Both the position numbers and the translations under genes were made by a program. From a virus, in the IMG/VR virus record IMGVR_UViG_3300028840_002107, positions 1 through 26,220 of that record: a stretch of DNA of 26,220 bases. One strand, 5' to 3'. Positions 9,688-18,795 of the stretch are shown here, one piece after another. How positions within the stretch are numbered: the stretch's first letter is position 1; every line of letters begins with the position of its first letter. Under the pieces are notes generated by a model. The model had not been told where the DNA came from. It did not search any database and saw only the letters and a program-made list of their open reading frames with translations.

Positions 9688-11690
9688 TATCCGCTCCCTC
9701 TCAAAGCCATGTAACAAAATTGACCGTATAATTCGAACGCGAGATGGCATCCCAAGGATGCAATCATAGGTCCCGTTCCCCAAGTCCCGCCCGATGGATA
9801 GTGCATCATAATGAAATAGAGATGGGTATCCGTGAGAGGTTCAAGCCTTAATGATGGGCCTCCACGTCCCCATTCGTCAGAGTTATAAATATAAGATCCG
9901 CTTTTCACCCGCTTGATCGTTCTGTTGAGAATAATCCCGCTATCATCTTCAAGAATGTTATCTCCGCGCAGGGCAGAACTACCATTTACCGAATCGGTCA
10001 GCGGGTCCTCAAATGTCACGCCATAATCATTGTCCAGGGGGATAAGGATCAGAGAGTAAATTTCAAGGGTTCCACTTCCCGTTGTTCGCTCGGCATGGAT
10101 TTCAAAGATAATATCTCCGCTGGTATAACTGTCCTTAGAGCTGGCATAACCAAATGGGATTTTGATCGTTCCAAGTTCGACAACTTCATGACCCTGATCC
10201 TCTCCTTCAAGATCAACTATTTTTGTATCTCTTTTAGGAGAATAAACATTGGAGGCATCGTTGATATAAGTGCGCAGCATGATCCCCGTGTCACCGGCAG
10301 AACCGGATCCTACCTGTTGACAGGTCACAAAGGCACGATATTCCCCGATCCAATCGCCCAGCTTATCTGTACCTGTAAAAATGGCGCGCTTGACTAATGT
10401 TTCCTCGGTGGAAAAGGAAACTGCGCAATGATAGCCCCCAGGGGCTTCAACATCGGCTACGCTGGAACTATCATCCCCATAGGTTATTGCCCAGCCCGAA
10501 GGATTGTCCTGATTTCCTGCATTCAGATGGGATGTAAACGTGCCGGGGTCATTTTTAGCACCAATAACAATTCGTGAAAGGGAAGAAAAGCCCTCGTTTT
10601 CATCACCCCCTGCTGGCGTATACATTCGTATACATACATAAGGCCAAGTATCTCCCTCGATAAGCGTTGAGGGAATTTGTACTTCGGGGGTACGTTGAGC
10701 ATAATCATCTTGTGAAGCTGAAGCAACAGGAATAGTACCCCACGAAGGAGAAGCGGCCTGTTCTGAGATTATTAGCCACCAAGCATTGACTGAATTCCAG
10801 GTATCTTGTATCCAATCTGATGGCGGATTTACGCAAATTACTATATCTTCGTCATTCTGTTCTAAACAAGCCTCCAAGTCTGGGCCAGGATAACAAGTAT
10901 AATCAGTTCCAAGGGTTAAAGCCGCGGTCGTTCCTACACCATCTGAGTAATAAAGTGCCAGCGTCCCCGAATGGTTTATGCCTGCCGTAGAAAGTTTTGG
11001 AAGGACAAATATTTTGAACGGTCCCGCAGTAGAACCTATCCACAAACCATCGTTCTGAGCCACAGAAGGAAATATATTCCATGAATTAGTTCCATGAAGA
11101 TTGCTTCCCCAGGGAGAGCCCGATTTCATATATAAATGAGTAATATTGCTGTCATCCCTAAAATTGGAAACATGCACCATTGTAGGACTTGCTGGTCCAT
11201 CCGTGGGATCAAGTGTCAGCGCAGAGCCAAGAGTCCCTGGAGCACCCGAGCGCCAGATACCGCGGGCAATATTCACGCCTTGCGTTTCAATCCAATTCTG
11301 TGTCTCAAAGGGTAAGTTAAAGAAATCGGGGTTGCTAACCTCAGGGCTTTCATAAACTTTGGCATATCGAGTGCCGGTTTCATTGGTTGTTTGCTGGGTA
11401 ATATAGACTGGATTATATTGTTCGGGATGTTTTCTATGCAGATAGGCTTGTTTCAATAATTTAATAAGCGCTCGAGTCTGTGTGGCAAGATTATCATGAC
11501 TGGAGCCCATAACAATTAAGTCATAATGTTCAACAAAGAGTTCATCTTCGATGCTCTGTGCAGCATAATATTGATGAGGAGTAAATGACGACTGACCAAA
11601 TCCGCCCTTGGTTGCAATTATGCCAGGGGAAGAACTGTCAATAAGATCGACCGTATCTGACCCATTCGTGATATTAAACGTTCTCGCCAT
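9687..11690 (-). CDS. Dit-like distal tail protein with long beta-rich extension
   Basis: The 667-residue product starts MARTFNITNGSDTVDLIDS, has SHDNLATQTRALIKLLKQAY (about 60-85) and reads as mostly beta structure up to the end. Genes directly after the tape measure usually code for the distal tail protein, and the N-terminal 130 residues fit in size. Residues about 140-640 form a large extra part rich in Gly, Ser, Asp and Trp, for instance GSAGDTGIMLRTYIND and GTLEIYSLILIPLD, which look like jelly-roll strands. ATG 11690 overlaps the tape measure stop (TAATG). It may combine tail-tip ring and carbohydrate-binding roles. The family call is inference from position. Confidence 0.6.
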   Translation of the reverse strand: MARTFNITNGSDTVDLIDSSSPGIIATKGGFGQSSFTPHQYYAAQSIEDELFVEHYDLIVMGSSHDNLATQTRALIKLLKQAYLHRKHPEQYNPVYITQQTTNETGTRYAKVYESPEVSNPDFFNLPFETQNWIETQGVNIARGIWRSGAPGTLGSALTLDPTDGPASPTMVHVSNFRDDSNITHLYMKSGSPWGSNLHGTNSWNIFPSVAQNDGLWIGSTAGPFKIFVLPKLSTAGINHSGTLALYYSDGVGTTAALTLGTDYTCYPGPDLEACLEQNDEDIVICVNPPSDWIQDTWNSVNAWWLIISEQAASPSWGTIPVASASQDDYAQRTPEVQIPSTLIEGDTWPYVCIRMYTPAGGDENEGFSSLSRIVIGAKNDPGTFTSHLNAGNQDNPSGWAITYGDDSSSVADVEAPGGYHCAVSFSTEETLVKRAIFTGTDKLGDWIGEYRAFVTCQQVGSGSAGDTGIMLRTYINDASNVYSPKRDTKIVDLEGEDQGHEVVELGTIKIPFGYASSKDSYTSGDIIFEIHAERTTGSGTLEIYSLILIPLDNDYGVTFEDPLTDSVNGSSALRGDNILEDDSGIILNRTIKRVKSGSYIYNSDEWGRGGPSLRLEPLTDTHLYFIMMHYPSGGTWGTGPMIASLGCHLAFELYGQFCYMALRGSG

Positions 11691-13321
11691 TAAACTAATC
11701 GCTCCAGCATACTCTTAAAAGTTCTCATATCGAGAGTGTTATTGATATTCACAGTCATACCTTTGAAAGGCTGATTGTAATTATTTGTTTCACCTTGGGG
11801 GGTGATTTTTACATGTTCCCCAGAACTCGCCAGAATTGGAAATGTATCGTTGGGATAACCCGGGGGAACAATCATATCCAATCCATATTGCCCGCCAATC
11901 CCATCTTCAAATAAAAAGTGTCGATATTGGCTTCCTGTTCCAACTCGCATATTAATAATGAGTTCTGTTGTAAGGGTTTGCCCATCCATTTCGAGGAGTT
12001 TGGTTTTTGCATCTTCAATAGGAATATCGAGGGCGTCTGAAATGTTTTCAGACGCTTGCCAAAGATCAAGATTATTCATGTCAATTTGGAGATTTTGCCA
12101 TTGCGTATAAACTTCGGCATACATCGCTTCAGCTTCGGGAGCTGTGATTTTTCCAGCTTCTAACGCTGCCGTGATAGCCTGTTCTGCGCCCATGAGTTCC
12201 CCGCCACCTGCTGCAAGTAATTCAAGGTCCTCCATTCTTCTTTCAAGGACAGAGCCTAGTCCGGTATCTACTTTGTCAAAAAAGCTTGTTGCTGCATCTC
12301 TGGCCCTGTAATAACTACGTTTGATTTCCTCGTTTTCTCCAGCGAGCTCCTTGCCCGCCTCGATTTCTTCTTGCTCCGCACTAGCAATTTCCTTATGAAC
12401 AACGATGTGTAGTTCTTTCTCAAATCGAATAGCTTCCGCTATTGCTGCCCATTCCCGCAACTCAGCATAATTTTTGGCTATCTTCCTACCAGCCTCATCA
12501 TAAAAGCCACCAAAAAGACCTGCCGTTAAATTATGTTCCTCCATTGTCCGAATAGATTCATTAATTGCGCCTGTACCATTCATTATTCTGTCAGCAAATT
12601 TTGGAAACGTTCTGGCAATGAGAATGGTCAGGCTGTCTTGTAACTCATCTAAATTTTTGTTAAATTGTTCGTATTTAGTCGCCAAATCCTCGACAAGTTC
12701 ACCCGTATCGGTAAGCAAGGGTTGCGCATCCTGAATGGTCTGATTGAAAAGGATCTGCTTTTTCTCGGCGTCAGTCAATTTGTCAGCCGTTGTGCCCATT
12801 TTTCGGGCATAATTATCGAATATTTTCCCGCCCGCGGTCAGGATGCCAAGATTGTCCAGAATGAGAGGCGACATTCTACCAATGCCAGTTGTCAGGTCAT
12901 TGATAGATTGCAGAGGACCAAGCCCCATCGCACGACCGAGGGCAATAGATGATTTCGTTAGTTTGTCAAATTCCGCTGGGGTTTTAGCAACACCGAGGCG
13001 CAGGGCTCTATTCGCGACAAGGATGGCATCGGATCGGCTGATGGTTTGATGGGATGCGGTCTGAATAGAGTCTATAATGTCATCCATTGATTGACCGAAA
13101 GAATCGGCCAGGGTTTCACCAGTCGCTTCAAGACGAAGTAACTGAGCCCCTTCCTCGCCAAAATCAAATGCTTTTTTCGCTGTTAATGCCGCAGCTCCGA
13201 GGGCTGCAAAGGTGGCAATACCAACCTTTTTGAGATTTTTTAAATCACCCGTAGTTTGTTTTGCTGCATCTCCTGATTTTCTTGATCTCAGGATAAGTTC
13301 CAGCGTGTCTCTAGCGCCCAT
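11690..13321 (-). CDS. Tape measure protein
   Basis: The 543-residue product is alpha-helical with one hydrophobic stretch (about residues 33-47, IATFAALGAAALTAK), and it has the LRLGVAKTPAEFDKLTKSSI and NQTIQDAQPLLTDTGELVEDL-type sequence seen in phage tail length proteins. These set tail length and help pass DNA through the membrane. By the usual rule of about 1.5 angstrom per residue the tail would be around 80 nm, short to medium for a siphovirus. It directly follows the G/GT chaperone gene, as is standard. I see no lytic transglycosylase or peptidase domain. The ATG at 13321 has AGGTAG upstream. The C-terminal 100 residues look beta-rich. Confidence 0.85.
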   Translation of the reverse strand: MGARDTLELILRSRKSGDAAKQTTGDLKNLKKVGIATFAALGAAALTAKKAFDFGEEGAQLLRLEATGETLADSFGQSMDDIIDSIQTASHQTISRSDAILVANRALRLGVAKTPAEFDKLTKSSIALGRAMGLGPLQSINDLTTGIGRMSPLILDNLGILTAGGKIFDNYARKMGTTADKLTDAEKKQILFNQTIQDAQPLLTDTGELVEDLATKYEQFNKNLDELQDSLTILIARTFPKFADRIMNGTGAINESIRTMEEHNLTAGLFGGFYDEAGRKIAKNYAELREWAAIAEAIRFEKELHIVVHKEIASAEQEEIEAGKELAGENEEIKRSYYRARDAATSFFDKVDTGLGSVLERRMEDLELLAAGGGELMGAEQAITAALEAGKITAPEAEAMYAEVYTQWQNLQIDMNNLDLWQASENISDALDIPIEDAKTKLLEMDGQTLTTELIINMRVGTGSQYRHFLFEDGIGGQYGLDMIVPPGYPNDTFPILASSGEHVKITPQGETNNYNQPFKGMTVNINNTLDMRTFKSMLERLV

Positions 13322-13328
13322 AATCTAC

Positions 13329-13984
13329 CTAGTGTTTATACTTCTGAAATGTCGGATGTTGTCTCCGAAAGTTCGCCAATCTAGCTTCCCAATCATCCTT
13401 TTCCTTTTGTAGAGTAGGAAGCCCCATTTCTAATGATTCAAAACTTGCAAGCCATTCGTCCGTAATTTCATCTACCTCCCAAGGCCAGATAGCAAATCCG
13501 CCCATTAATCGATTAATCCGCTGTGCCTGGATTATTCTTGATAGTTGTGGATGTCGAGTTGCGCCACTCTGAGAGAGTACGAGCAGCGCGTCTGTCAGTT
13601 TTTTCTTATTCGCTCCTGTTGCCTTTTAAGTAAGTCAAAGGTTCCTGTAATGACGAATTCCCAGAGGCCTATATCATGCTCGATACATTGCTGATTGAGT
13701 TCCCGCACTTCCTCAGGGGGCCATTCATGTCCGTCCTTTTGGCTCCATATTTTCGAGTACCATTCAAATAATCTCTGATTGGCTTCTTCGTTTTTTTCAA
13801 TCAGGCCATCCCCTTCGTAATTTCTCATTTCAAGGATTGCCTTACGTGCTTCGTCGTATTCTTCCCGCACCGAATAGGGGGGATTGACCCACACGTAGAT
13901 AATGGATCCTTCCTGACCGCCATAGGCTTCCTCATAGTCTGCAAGATCCAGCGGCTTCACGACTTTCTTTATTTTGAACTTCAT
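13329..13984 (-). CDS. Tail assembly chaperone, frameshifted long form (GT-like)
   Basis: A -1 slip at 13598-13604 joins the 129-residue short form to an ORF that continues in the -1 frame to TAG at 13329-13331. The added part is 89 residues, starting LTDALLVLSQSG and ending RRQHPTFQKYKH, to give about 218 residues. The ORF has no good start of its own (first Met is 32 residues in), so it is invisible as a separate gene, yet it is open from the slip site to eight bases before the tape measure start. In lambda and most siphoviruses the GT product binds the tail tube through its T domain and the tape measure through G. Confidence 0.8.
13561..13589 (-). promoter_or_regulatory. Possible frameshift-stimulating stem-loop
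   Basis: On the - strand GCGC (13589-13586) can pair with GCGC (13564-13561), and inside it ACTCT pairs with AGAGT around a CTC loop, with seven unpaired bases on one side and one on the other. It begins eight bases after the slippery heptamer, a suitable distance. The fold is modest and was judged by eye. Confidence 0.4.
13595..13984 (-). CDS. Tail assembly chaperone, short form (G-like)
   Basis: The 129-residue product is acidic and helical and lies between the tail tube and tape measure genes, the standard place of the lambda gpG equivalent, which coats the tape measure during tail assembly. It ends DLLKRQQERIRKN. I chose ATG 13984 because GAGGGG lies just upstream; a TTG at 14014 would overlap the tube gene. 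The last codons, AGA AAA AAC, form a -1 slippery site directly before the TGA, so part of translation should continue into the next frame. Function by gene position; sequence is not obviously like lambda G. Confidence 0.78.
   Translation of the reverse strand: MKFKIKKVVKPLDLADYEEAYGGQEGSIIYVWVNPPYSVREEYDEARKAILEMRNYEGDGLIEKNEEANQRLFEWYSKIWSQKDGHEWPPEEVRELNQQCIEHDIGLWEFVITGTFDLLKRQQERIRKN
13598..13604 (-). promoter_or_regulatory. -1 ribosomal frameshift site A AAA AAC
   Basis: On the - strand the bases read A AAA AAC in phase with the G-like frame and are followed at once by its TGA stop. This fits the X XXY YYZ heptamer. Slipping back one base leads to CTG ACA GAC and an 89-residue open frame. 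A stem-loop follows after eight bases. Confidence 0.8.
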
Positions 13985-14000: not shown

Positions 14001-15011
14001 TTAGATTGCGTCAACGTTTGTCGTCACCGTCAAAGCTAACTTTTTCGCGCCAGTTGCATCATATTCAGGAACCAGGATCGCACGATGTAAGTTGTTTCCA
14101 TTGACCTGTTCGGCCATAGGCTGAACGTCATCCCAGGTTCCGCCAAGATCCAGAACCATAGAGTGAGGGTCACCCGTTCCGATCTGTGGGCCTGTAATGG
14201 TCAATCGAACAACCTGCAAGGCTTGGCTTCGGAAAGTGTCATATATACCATCTGCACTAGAATTTCCTTCCAATGTGAAATTGGCAATAAACCCGATGAC
14301 ATCCTCGCCATGAGAGTCGAAATATTGATATGCGCTACCAAAGAATTTTGGATGAACGCCAGTCAATAATTCAATATCAAATGCTCGAAGTGTATTGGTC
14401 AAAGGCGTACCGCCAACTCCCGCCCAGGTTGTATCAACGGCAATAGTCGCCAGCTTTGCATTCATGAAATTTACAGTCGGAGCAGTAAGAGCAGCCGTAA
14501 AATCTGTTGGCGTCCATTGACGTGCAAAGAATCCACCTTCAACCACAACGGGGGATTCATCCATTCCCTGCGCAACCACACCAGAGATGCGAATGCGCTC
14601 AAACATTAGATACTCAGCTTCATAAGCCTGAACGTTATCTCCACGCTCGAACGTTATGCTGTCATGACTATTGGTTGCCGTTTCGCTTGGGGTAAAGGTC
14701 CAAAGATAATCATTCTGGTCAGTAGTTTGCTCGGCTGGCGAAACCCCGCCTTTAATCCCACAGGAAAAGATCACCGGCAATACCTGGAAATAGCCGTAAG
14801 GAAAGCGCATCGTGTCGCTTACAAGATATTGATAGAAATAGCTTTCTGCCGATTCTGTCTTTACCCCGATATTGGCCCTTGGTCTTGCTGGTTTGCGATC
14901 AGGCAATAGCGGCGACATCTCCAGTCCATAGAACATCGTATCCGCCGCCACCGCTGAACCTGGCGTCCCTTCTACACCGAATTGAAACTTAGAAAGTGCT
15001 TCGTCACCCAT
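14001..15011 (-). CDS. Major tail tube protein
   Basis: The 336-residue product, starting MGDEALSKFQFGVEGTPGSA, is mostly beta-type sequence with motifs known from siphovirus tail tubes: an N-terminal 'G.E.TPG.A' followed by TMFYGLEMSP, a QNDYLWTFTPSE section, and FERIRISGVV in the middle. The tube polymerises around the tape measure. AAAAGGAGTAATTC directly precedes ATG 15011. The position upstream of the chaperone pair supports the call. It is longer than lambda gpV (about 250 residues), so an added surface domain is possible. Confidence 0.82.
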   Translation of the reverse strand: MGDEALSKFQFGVEGTPGSAVAADTMFYGLEMSPLLPDRKPARPRANIGVKTESAESYFYQYLVSDTMRFPYGYFQVLPVIFSCGIKGGVSPAEQTTDQNDYLWTFTPSETATNSHDSITFERGDNVQAYEAEYLMFERIRISGVVAQGMDESPVVVEGGFFARQWTPTDFTAALTAPTVNFMNAKLATIAVDTTWAGVGGTPLTNTLRAFDIELLTGVHPKFFGSAYQYFDSHGEDVIGFIANFTLEGNSSADGIYDTFRSQALQVVRLTITGPQIGTGDPHSMVLDLGGTWDDVQPMAEQVNGNNLHRAILVPEYDATGAKKLALTVTTNVDAI

Positions 15012-17191: not shown

Positions 17192-17429
17192 TTGCCTTCT
17201 TCCTTGGGCGTCCTCTCGGGCGCCCTACTGATTTTTTCCTTGGGGGCGATTTCACGGCTTTGTCCTGTGGGGGTTCTTCGATTTCTTTGACCTCAATAAA
17301 TTCTTCAAAACACAGAGGGGCATCGTTCATCAGCCATTGAGCCATTTTGTCATTCACTTCAATAACATCGCCCTTCTTAAAGCGCCCCATGTTGCTTACA
17401 TACTGATCAAGCAGCTTCAATTTCTTCAT
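17184..17429 (-). CDS. Small phage protein with AT-hook-like tail
   Basis: The 81-residue product has an N-terminal part (MKKLKLLDQYVSNMGRFKKG) followed by GDVIEVNDKMAQWLMND, which looks like a small beta-helix module often seen as a short head protein. The end is PPRKKSVGRPRGRPRKK, with a GRPRGRP core like the AT-hook that binds the minor groove of AT-rich DNA. It lies between capsid and adaptor genes and overlaps both neighbours. A DNA-contacting role inside the head or at the neck is a reasonable guess; the tail may also be plain basic sequence. Confidence 0.7.
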   Translation of the reverse strand: MKKLKLLDQYVSNMGRFKKGDVIEVNDKMAQWLMNDAPLCFEEFIEVKEIEEPPQDKAVKSPPRKKSVGRPRGRPRKKASG

Positions 17430-18795
17430 GTTTTTCTCTTTTCAAAATCTCTACACCAATGTTATGTCTGTCACAGACCACGAGCCCATTCGTTTCAATC
17501 CATTGAGCATACGCTTCTGAATGATCAAAGTGCATAGGATAAATCTCTTGCTGGCCAAAGTTGTTCCTGAAATAGAACTTTCCATCAGGCTTCAGCAGTC
17601 CCAGCATGGCGTCCATTGTGCTTTCAAATTCGTCGGGGTGAATATGTTCGAGGGTATCAATGGCAATGATCCAGTCATAAACCGGGTAAGCCTGACTTTC
17701 CCTGAGATCTCCAAAGTTCCATATTGAAACGCTACTTTCGTCTCTATATCGCCAGACAAGGAAATCTCTTAGAGCCCCGGGCAACTCAAAAACTACAACT
17801 CTATTCCTGCCCTTTAAGACTTCCACTTCTCCGCCAATACCACCTCCAACTACTAAAACAGTCTTGCTAAAAATATCGCCTAGGGGGGCAATGGCTTTTT
17901 GGTAAAGTGGCATGTTATTCCATCCGAGGAGGTCATAGAAATAACCGCTGTCCTCCGCACCATAGAATTTCTTAAGCTCATTTGCACTTTGGGGATTGCC
18001 ATGACGCTCCAGACCTTCCCGTACATTGGCAGAACCCCGCATAGCATGGGCGATAACTGTTTCCGGATCTTCATTAAGAAATTCAGCGACCAAATTCACG
18101 CGCCCATAGGCTTCTTTCCAGAGATCGGCAACACCTGAGAGTTGGATATATTCCTGATAACTTTCCCAGCCGGTCGTTACCCTTGAGATATGACCGGCTT
18201 TCACTTTCGTTGTAGATCCAATCCTGAAGCCGTGATCTGTCGCATCAAAGCAAAAGGCTGAATCCTCGCTAATCTTTTTATGTCTCGGATACCAGAAGAA
18301 ATCGAATTCTTCCAGAGGAATTTCGGGGTGTTCTTCCAGCATCTTTTCAAAAACTTCGCGCCGGATCAAAACGCTATGTAATCCGGCAAGCGCCGTTTCT
18401 TCGGTATGGTTATCCTTCCATACAAGACATTGCATCAGATCGCCCAATGCGCTTCGCTTGAACCAAATCGCCTCTGGGGGCCAACCCCGCCGGGGATAGA
18501 ATGCCTGAAATATGTCAAACTCCCATCCATCTTCGATGCTTCTCAGTTCTTCAACGAACTGGTATCCACCATCCCAATCGCTATCAAGAAAGCAGATACT
18601 ATCGAGATCCGTTCTCAGGAATTTACGAACCAATTCATTCGCTGAAATATGGGCGGGGTGATCTTTCTCTATAGCAAATGCATCACCAGGGCGAAGCCCT
18701 TTGGCAATCAGATGCGACCATGCTGTTACAAACTGGTTCTCGACCATTTTTTCTAATCGAGTACCTACCAGAACACTTCCCCACTCTTTTTTCAT
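17407..18795 (-). CDS. Glycosyltransferase-methyltransferase fusion
   Basis: The 462-residue product has an N-terminal section with GT-A-like features: SVLVGTRLEKMVEN at the start, FLDSDWDGG (69-77) with the Asp71-x-Asp73 metal site of GT2-type enzymes, and a LDEFDFFWYPRHKK-like acceptor area. From about residue 310 it has a SAM-dependent methyltransferase pattern: KTVLVVGGGIGGEVE (glycine loop), VVVFELPG (motif II acidic residue) and DWIIAIDTLEHIHPDE (motif IV). It would add a sugar and methylate a substrate, perhaps a virion protein, since the gene sits between capsid and connector genes. ATG 18795 has GAGGG upstream. Enzyme classes are fairly sure; substrate is unknown. Confidence 0.8.
   Translation of the reverse strand: MKKEWGSVLVGTRLEKMVENQFVTAWSHLIAKGLRPGDAFAIEKDHPAHISANELVRKFLRTDLDSICFLDSDWDGGYQFVEELRSIEDGWEFDIFQAFYPRRGWPPEAIWFKRSALGDLMQCLVWKDNHTEETALAGLHSVLIRREVFEKMLEEHPEIPLEEFDFFWYPRHKKISEDSAFCFDATDHGFRIGSTTKVKAGHISRVTTGWESYQEYIQLSGVADLWKEAYGRVNLVAEFLNEDPETVIAHAMRGSANVREGLERHGNPQSANELKKFYGAEDSGYFYDLLGWNNMPLYQKAIAPLGDIFSKTVLVVGGGIGGEVEVLKGRNRVVVFELPGALRDFLVWRYRDESSVSIWNFGDLRESQAYPVYDWIIAIDTLEHIHPDEFESTMDAMLGLLKPDGKFYFRNNFGQQEIYPMHFDHSEAYAQWIETNGLVVCDRHNIGVEILKREKHEEIEAA

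Follow-up and report, generated by a model that had tools for sequence, protein, structure and literature searches.

A probable lambda G/GT-type −1 frameshift in a predicted tail assembly chaperone gene of a tailed phage and its relatives

The tail assembly chaperones of phage lambda are the closest described counterparts of the gene pair reported here. There the binding partner of G is the tape measure protein and that of T the tail tube subunit (PMC5009743). This arrangement, with the same role, is reported both for lambda and for a large number of other tailed phages (PMC5009743); a frameshift conserved in the tail-assembly genes of tailed phages is attributed to Xu, Hendrix and Duda (2004), cited in PMC5009743. 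The locus compared here is encoded on the minus strand of a virus record 26,220 bases long (the window, i.e. the whole stretch of DNA that was analysed), in which a G-like gene is followed by an extension frame. Because portal, head maturation protease and endolysin-like genes are present elsewhere in the window, it is taken to belong to a tailed phage, and no DNA similarity was found between the window and named phages. We put the probability at roughly 0.95 that the pair represents a programmed −1 ribosomal frameshift of the lambda G/GT type in a predicted tail assembly chaperone gene, a reading that draws on sequence comparison.

The G-like gene and its extension frame

The genes are ordered on the minus strand as a probable major tail protein gene (14001–15011, 336 codons), the G-like gene, the extension frame and the tape measure protein gene (11690–13321, 543 codons; PHROG 3779, E = 1.9e-11). 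The upstream gene (15011–14001) carries the major tail protein label from its position only; it had no family match in Pfam or PHROG, and homologues of 40–56% identity are present in most of the relatives. Also among the structural genes of the window is a 462-residue ORF (17407–18795, minus strand), the C-terminal part of which weakly matches methyltransferases (Pfam PF13489, E = 2e-5, under the curated cut-off).

The G-like gene (13595–13984, minus strand), recognized from its ORF, its profile homologues and a weak fold match, begins with ATG at 13984, ends with TGA at 13597–13595 after 129 codons, and lies between the probable major tail protein gene and the tape measure gene. Its 3′-end reads ...AGA AAA AAC TGA. 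The A_AAA_AAC heptamer (13604–13598, minus strand) is in phase with G and touches the TGA, as the preliminary description had stated. Only three in-phase A_AAA_AAH heptamers were counted in 7,194 window codons, which puts the chance expectation for the final 12 codons of any one gene at about 0.005; the heptamer at the end of G is therefore rarer by chance than the open frame that follows it, since a run of 89 open codons arises in about 2% of cases at the stop-triplet frequency of the window and is weak evidence alone. A second in-phase A_AAA_AAC lies within G (13796–13790, minus strand), where a slip would run into a −1 stop only a few codons further on, and this internal heptamer was not seen in the relatives first compared.

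The −1 frame (13329–13598, minus strand) re-reads the C at 13598, stays open for 89 codons and ends with TAG at 13331–13329, in agreement with the length first proposed; the gap to the tape measure ATG (13321), given as eight bases in the preliminary description, is seven. Joined to G, the extension gives a predicted GT product of 218 residues, again the proposed length. The extension frame opens 27 nt 5′ of the slip point, and between this opening and extension residue 20 no ATG, GTG or TTG was found in the window, which bears out the suggestion that the extension lacks a good start codon; having no usual start codon near its beginning, it would be missed by gene callers.

Neither G nor T had a convincing family match in Pfam or PHROG, whether taken from the window or from eight relatives (PHROG only for the T of the relatives), and by sequence they therefore constitute an undescribed chaperone family. 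The structural model of G (mean pLDDT 88.7) had as its best match the HK97 tail assembly chaperone 2ob9 (Foldseek rank 1, E 0.24, below significance), and VIA-align, in which 2ob9 again ranked first, superposed the two over 98 residues (Z 6.1, rmsd 4.3), likewise a weak match. With an E of 0.24 and an identity of 8–15%, this resemblance is too weak to establish homology between G and the HK97 chaperone; a fold search with T against viral structures found nothing. It is gene order, together with this weak fold match and not membership of a sequence family, that suggests a tail chaperone identity for G, and gene order from which we infer the chaperone role of G/GT.

Conservation of frame and heptamer among relatives

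No true relatives were obtained when viral contigs were searched directly with G, T and the tape measure protein; named phages yielded no relatives with G and T, and only distant tape measure proteins with the tape measure protein. Relatives were reached through the upstream tail protein, whose nine-member alignment led to 69 viral loci; the DNA following each tail protein gene was then scanned with G and T profiles derived from the first eight members. One candidate relative (L002) was rejected as spurious, its match being a single ‘WVNPP’ segment inside an unrelated ORF. In the relative L003, the tape measure ORF (9790–11916) contains a segment which, judged by eye, resembles an intein or related self-splicing domain (GGCFVQGSPI...VVHNK). 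In the first comparison, with seven relatives, the T of the window shared 28–39% identity with theirs (E = 3e-19 to 2e-7), the homology starting at the slip codon.

Wherever the profiles placed G and T in different frames, that of T was the −1 frame. With a marginal match (L078), four near-identical loci and a locus having both parts in one frame (L062) left out, the census comprised 39 non-duplicate loci including the window, a few of them cut by contig ends. In all 39 testable loci a homologous G is followed by the extension in the −1 frame, and an in-phase A_AAA_AAN stands at the same place, the junction, in 39 of 39, while elsewhere in the G genes of these loci an in-phase A6 was met in only 3 of 5,512 codons. 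The GT proteins have diverged to a median pairwise identity of 30%, which indicates long-term conservation rather than recent copying.

The mode of divergence was informative in a closely related pair of loci, L004 and L005, whose extensions show 71 differences over 285 bases. In the −1 reading, 19 of these are at first, 12 at second and 40 at third codon positions, and dN/dS is 0.19, whereas the other two frames give dN/dS values of 1.5 and 2.7 and contain stops. This shows that the extension is under purifying selection at the protein level in L004/L005, and exactly in the −1 frame; the preliminary description had made codon conservation in relatives a test of its proposal, and the proposal was upheld by this selection as well as by the 39 loci.

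These data bear on two other explanations. That the open −1 frame arose by chance, or that a sequencing or assembly error has split one gene, might be entertained from the roughly 2% chance of the open frame by itself and from L062, in which G and T share one frame across an 11-A run; the frame relation and the heptamer are nevertheless kept in 39 divergent loci, and with the protein-level selection in L004/L005 this refutes the reading, to which we assign a negligible probability. Judged on these sequences, the comparative evidence is decisive against chance. Alternatively, T could be a separate gene with its own internal start, coupled to the end of G without any frameshift, and in 31 of 39 loci an ATG, GTG or TTG does stand in the frame of T, either before T or shortly after its beginning. 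Yet the candidate starts vary in position among the relatives and often lie far upstream inside G, the window has no such start in the stretch from the frame opening to extension residue 20, and a separate gene would leave the in-phase A_AAA_AAN at every locus unexplained; we consider this highly improbable, and favour a frameshift at the heptamer.

The stem-loop and the probable route of slippage

A stem-loop had been proposed eight bases downstream of the heptamer, and folding returned the same coordinates (13561–13589, minus strand): bases 13589–13581 pair with 13569–13561 to form a 9-bp stem of −15.3 kcal/mol, 8 nt 3′ of the heptamer. Taken alone, the window's stem-loop is modest (z about −1.4 versus shuffles), and its support comes from the relatives. 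Across the 39 loci, the 62 bases after the heptamer are more stable than synonymous-codon shuffles in which both the T protein and its codons are preserved (mean z −1.01, P = 1.5e-4), and no excess structure was detected by the same shuffle test in a control stretch inside T (mean z 0.05, P = 0.63). The z values range from −1.4 to −3.4 in the clade of the window (L007, L018, L010, L046, L050 and L059). A comparable hairpin is present in 11 sequences, among which several base pairs have both partners exchanged (e.g. G-C in five and C-G in five, or C-G in four and G-C in four), with the caveat that the pairing register was picked for each sequence (i+j 41 to 46), which favours pairing. In many relatives the stem-loop is weak, above all in those with 9–10 A at the junction. 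We conclude that the stem-loop of the window is probably functional and that a stem-loop is not universal in the GT family. A further candidate stimulator, the Shine-Dalgarno-like AGGAG (13613–13617, minus strand), 8 nt 5′ of the heptamer, is weak and was set aside: 9% of same-length stretches in G are as good, and it is inconsistent in the relatives.

The length of the A-run raises the question of whether the ribosome or the RNA polymerase slips. Were the polymerase to stutter on the run, GT would be encoded in a single frame by a minority of mRNAs; slippage by bacterial RNA polymerase is efficient on runs of 9–10 A (PMC5009743), and such runs stand at the junction in 17 of the 39 loci (L016, L017, L019–L021, L023, L024, L029, L035, L036, L039, L041–L043, L048, L056 and L057), so that some relatives may differ in route. 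Loci with 9–10 A also tend to have weaker stem-loops (P = 0.004), but after tree correction the relation between A-run length and stem strength is not significant (r = 0.14, P = 0.21), and a trade-off between the two is not claimed. The window, in contrast, has six A only and its clade six or seven, followed by a downstream stem-loop, which points to the ribosome; for the G/GT pair as read here, transcriptional slippage is thus regarded as very unlikely.

Under programmed ribosomal frameshifting, most ribosomes would terminate at the TGA and release the 129-residue G, while a minority, aided by the stem-loop 8 nt downstream, would slip one base back on A_AAA_AAC and produce the 218-residue GT. 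If the roles known from lambda apply, the tape measure protein would be coated by G, and GT would recruit major tail subunits to it through its T part; both G and GT would leave before tail completion. What we infer in this scheme is that slippage takes place, at what rate, and that G and GT act as chaperones. The lambda-like −1 slipping originally suggested is backed by the conservation in 39 of 39 loci, the selection in the −1 frame and the excess of stem-loop structure. With this reading, two proteins lacking a match in the searched Pfam and PHROGs libraries would gain a confident annotation, and the census describes a chaperone family that keeps one slip motif strictly despite proteins diverged to about 30% identity.

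Other possible joining routes and described systems

G and T appear to be joined differently outside the census. In L062, where the 11-A run lies at about bases 424–434 of the 2,000 bases after the tail protein gene, the one-frame arrangement could be a natural fusion, a case in which slippage makes the short form, or an error in the sequence. Where the tail protein is only distantly related (about 26–33% identity), the next gene is a G-like one joined to an extension in the +1 frame, and the junction reads UUU CGA in six loci (L011–L014, L070 and L082), UUU UGA in two (L077 and L083) and UUU CCG in one (L079). These distant relatives probably use a +1 frameshift at the same place in the gene order, and slippage would be expected to lead from UUU onto the overlapping UUC or UUU where the codon that follows is slow or a stop. 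For comparison, influenza A virus has a known +1 site, UCC_UUU_CGU (PMC3498833), and a +1 shift in the corresponding gene of the archaeal virus HSTV-2 has been called very likely (PMC5009743).

Tentatively, and with considerable doubt, the route joining G to T may have changed repeatedly within one tail-gene lineage. The routes would be ribosomal −1 slippage on a short A-run with a stem-loop (the clade of the window), possible RNA polymerase slippage on stem-poor runs of 9–10 A, perhaps an in-frame fusion (L062), and +1 shifts at UUU before CGA, UGA or CCG (the distant relatives). If true, this would form a natural series in which selection keeps the product pair and not the recoding route.

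The locus of the window agrees with lambda gpG/gpGT in gene order, in having an in-phase heptamer where G ends and a −1 extension that runs up to the tape measure gene, and, by analogy, in its expected minority fusion product. It differs from lambda in that G and T have no sequence match to the searched families and in that the slip site is A_AAA_AAC, that of lambda being G_GGA_AAG. The −1 cassette of E. coli dnaX resembles the present one in combining an A-rich heptamer with a downstream stem-loop, while the likeness to its upstream Shine-Dalgarno-like stretch is only weak here; its slip site is A_AAA_AAG versus A_AAA_AAC, the former being the more slippery in E. coli (PMC5009743), and the dnaX shift shortens its product whereas the shift proposed here would lengthen it. 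The −1 frameshift trick itself is thus known, being common to many tailed phages; the novelty lies in the sequence family and in how broadly it is conserved.
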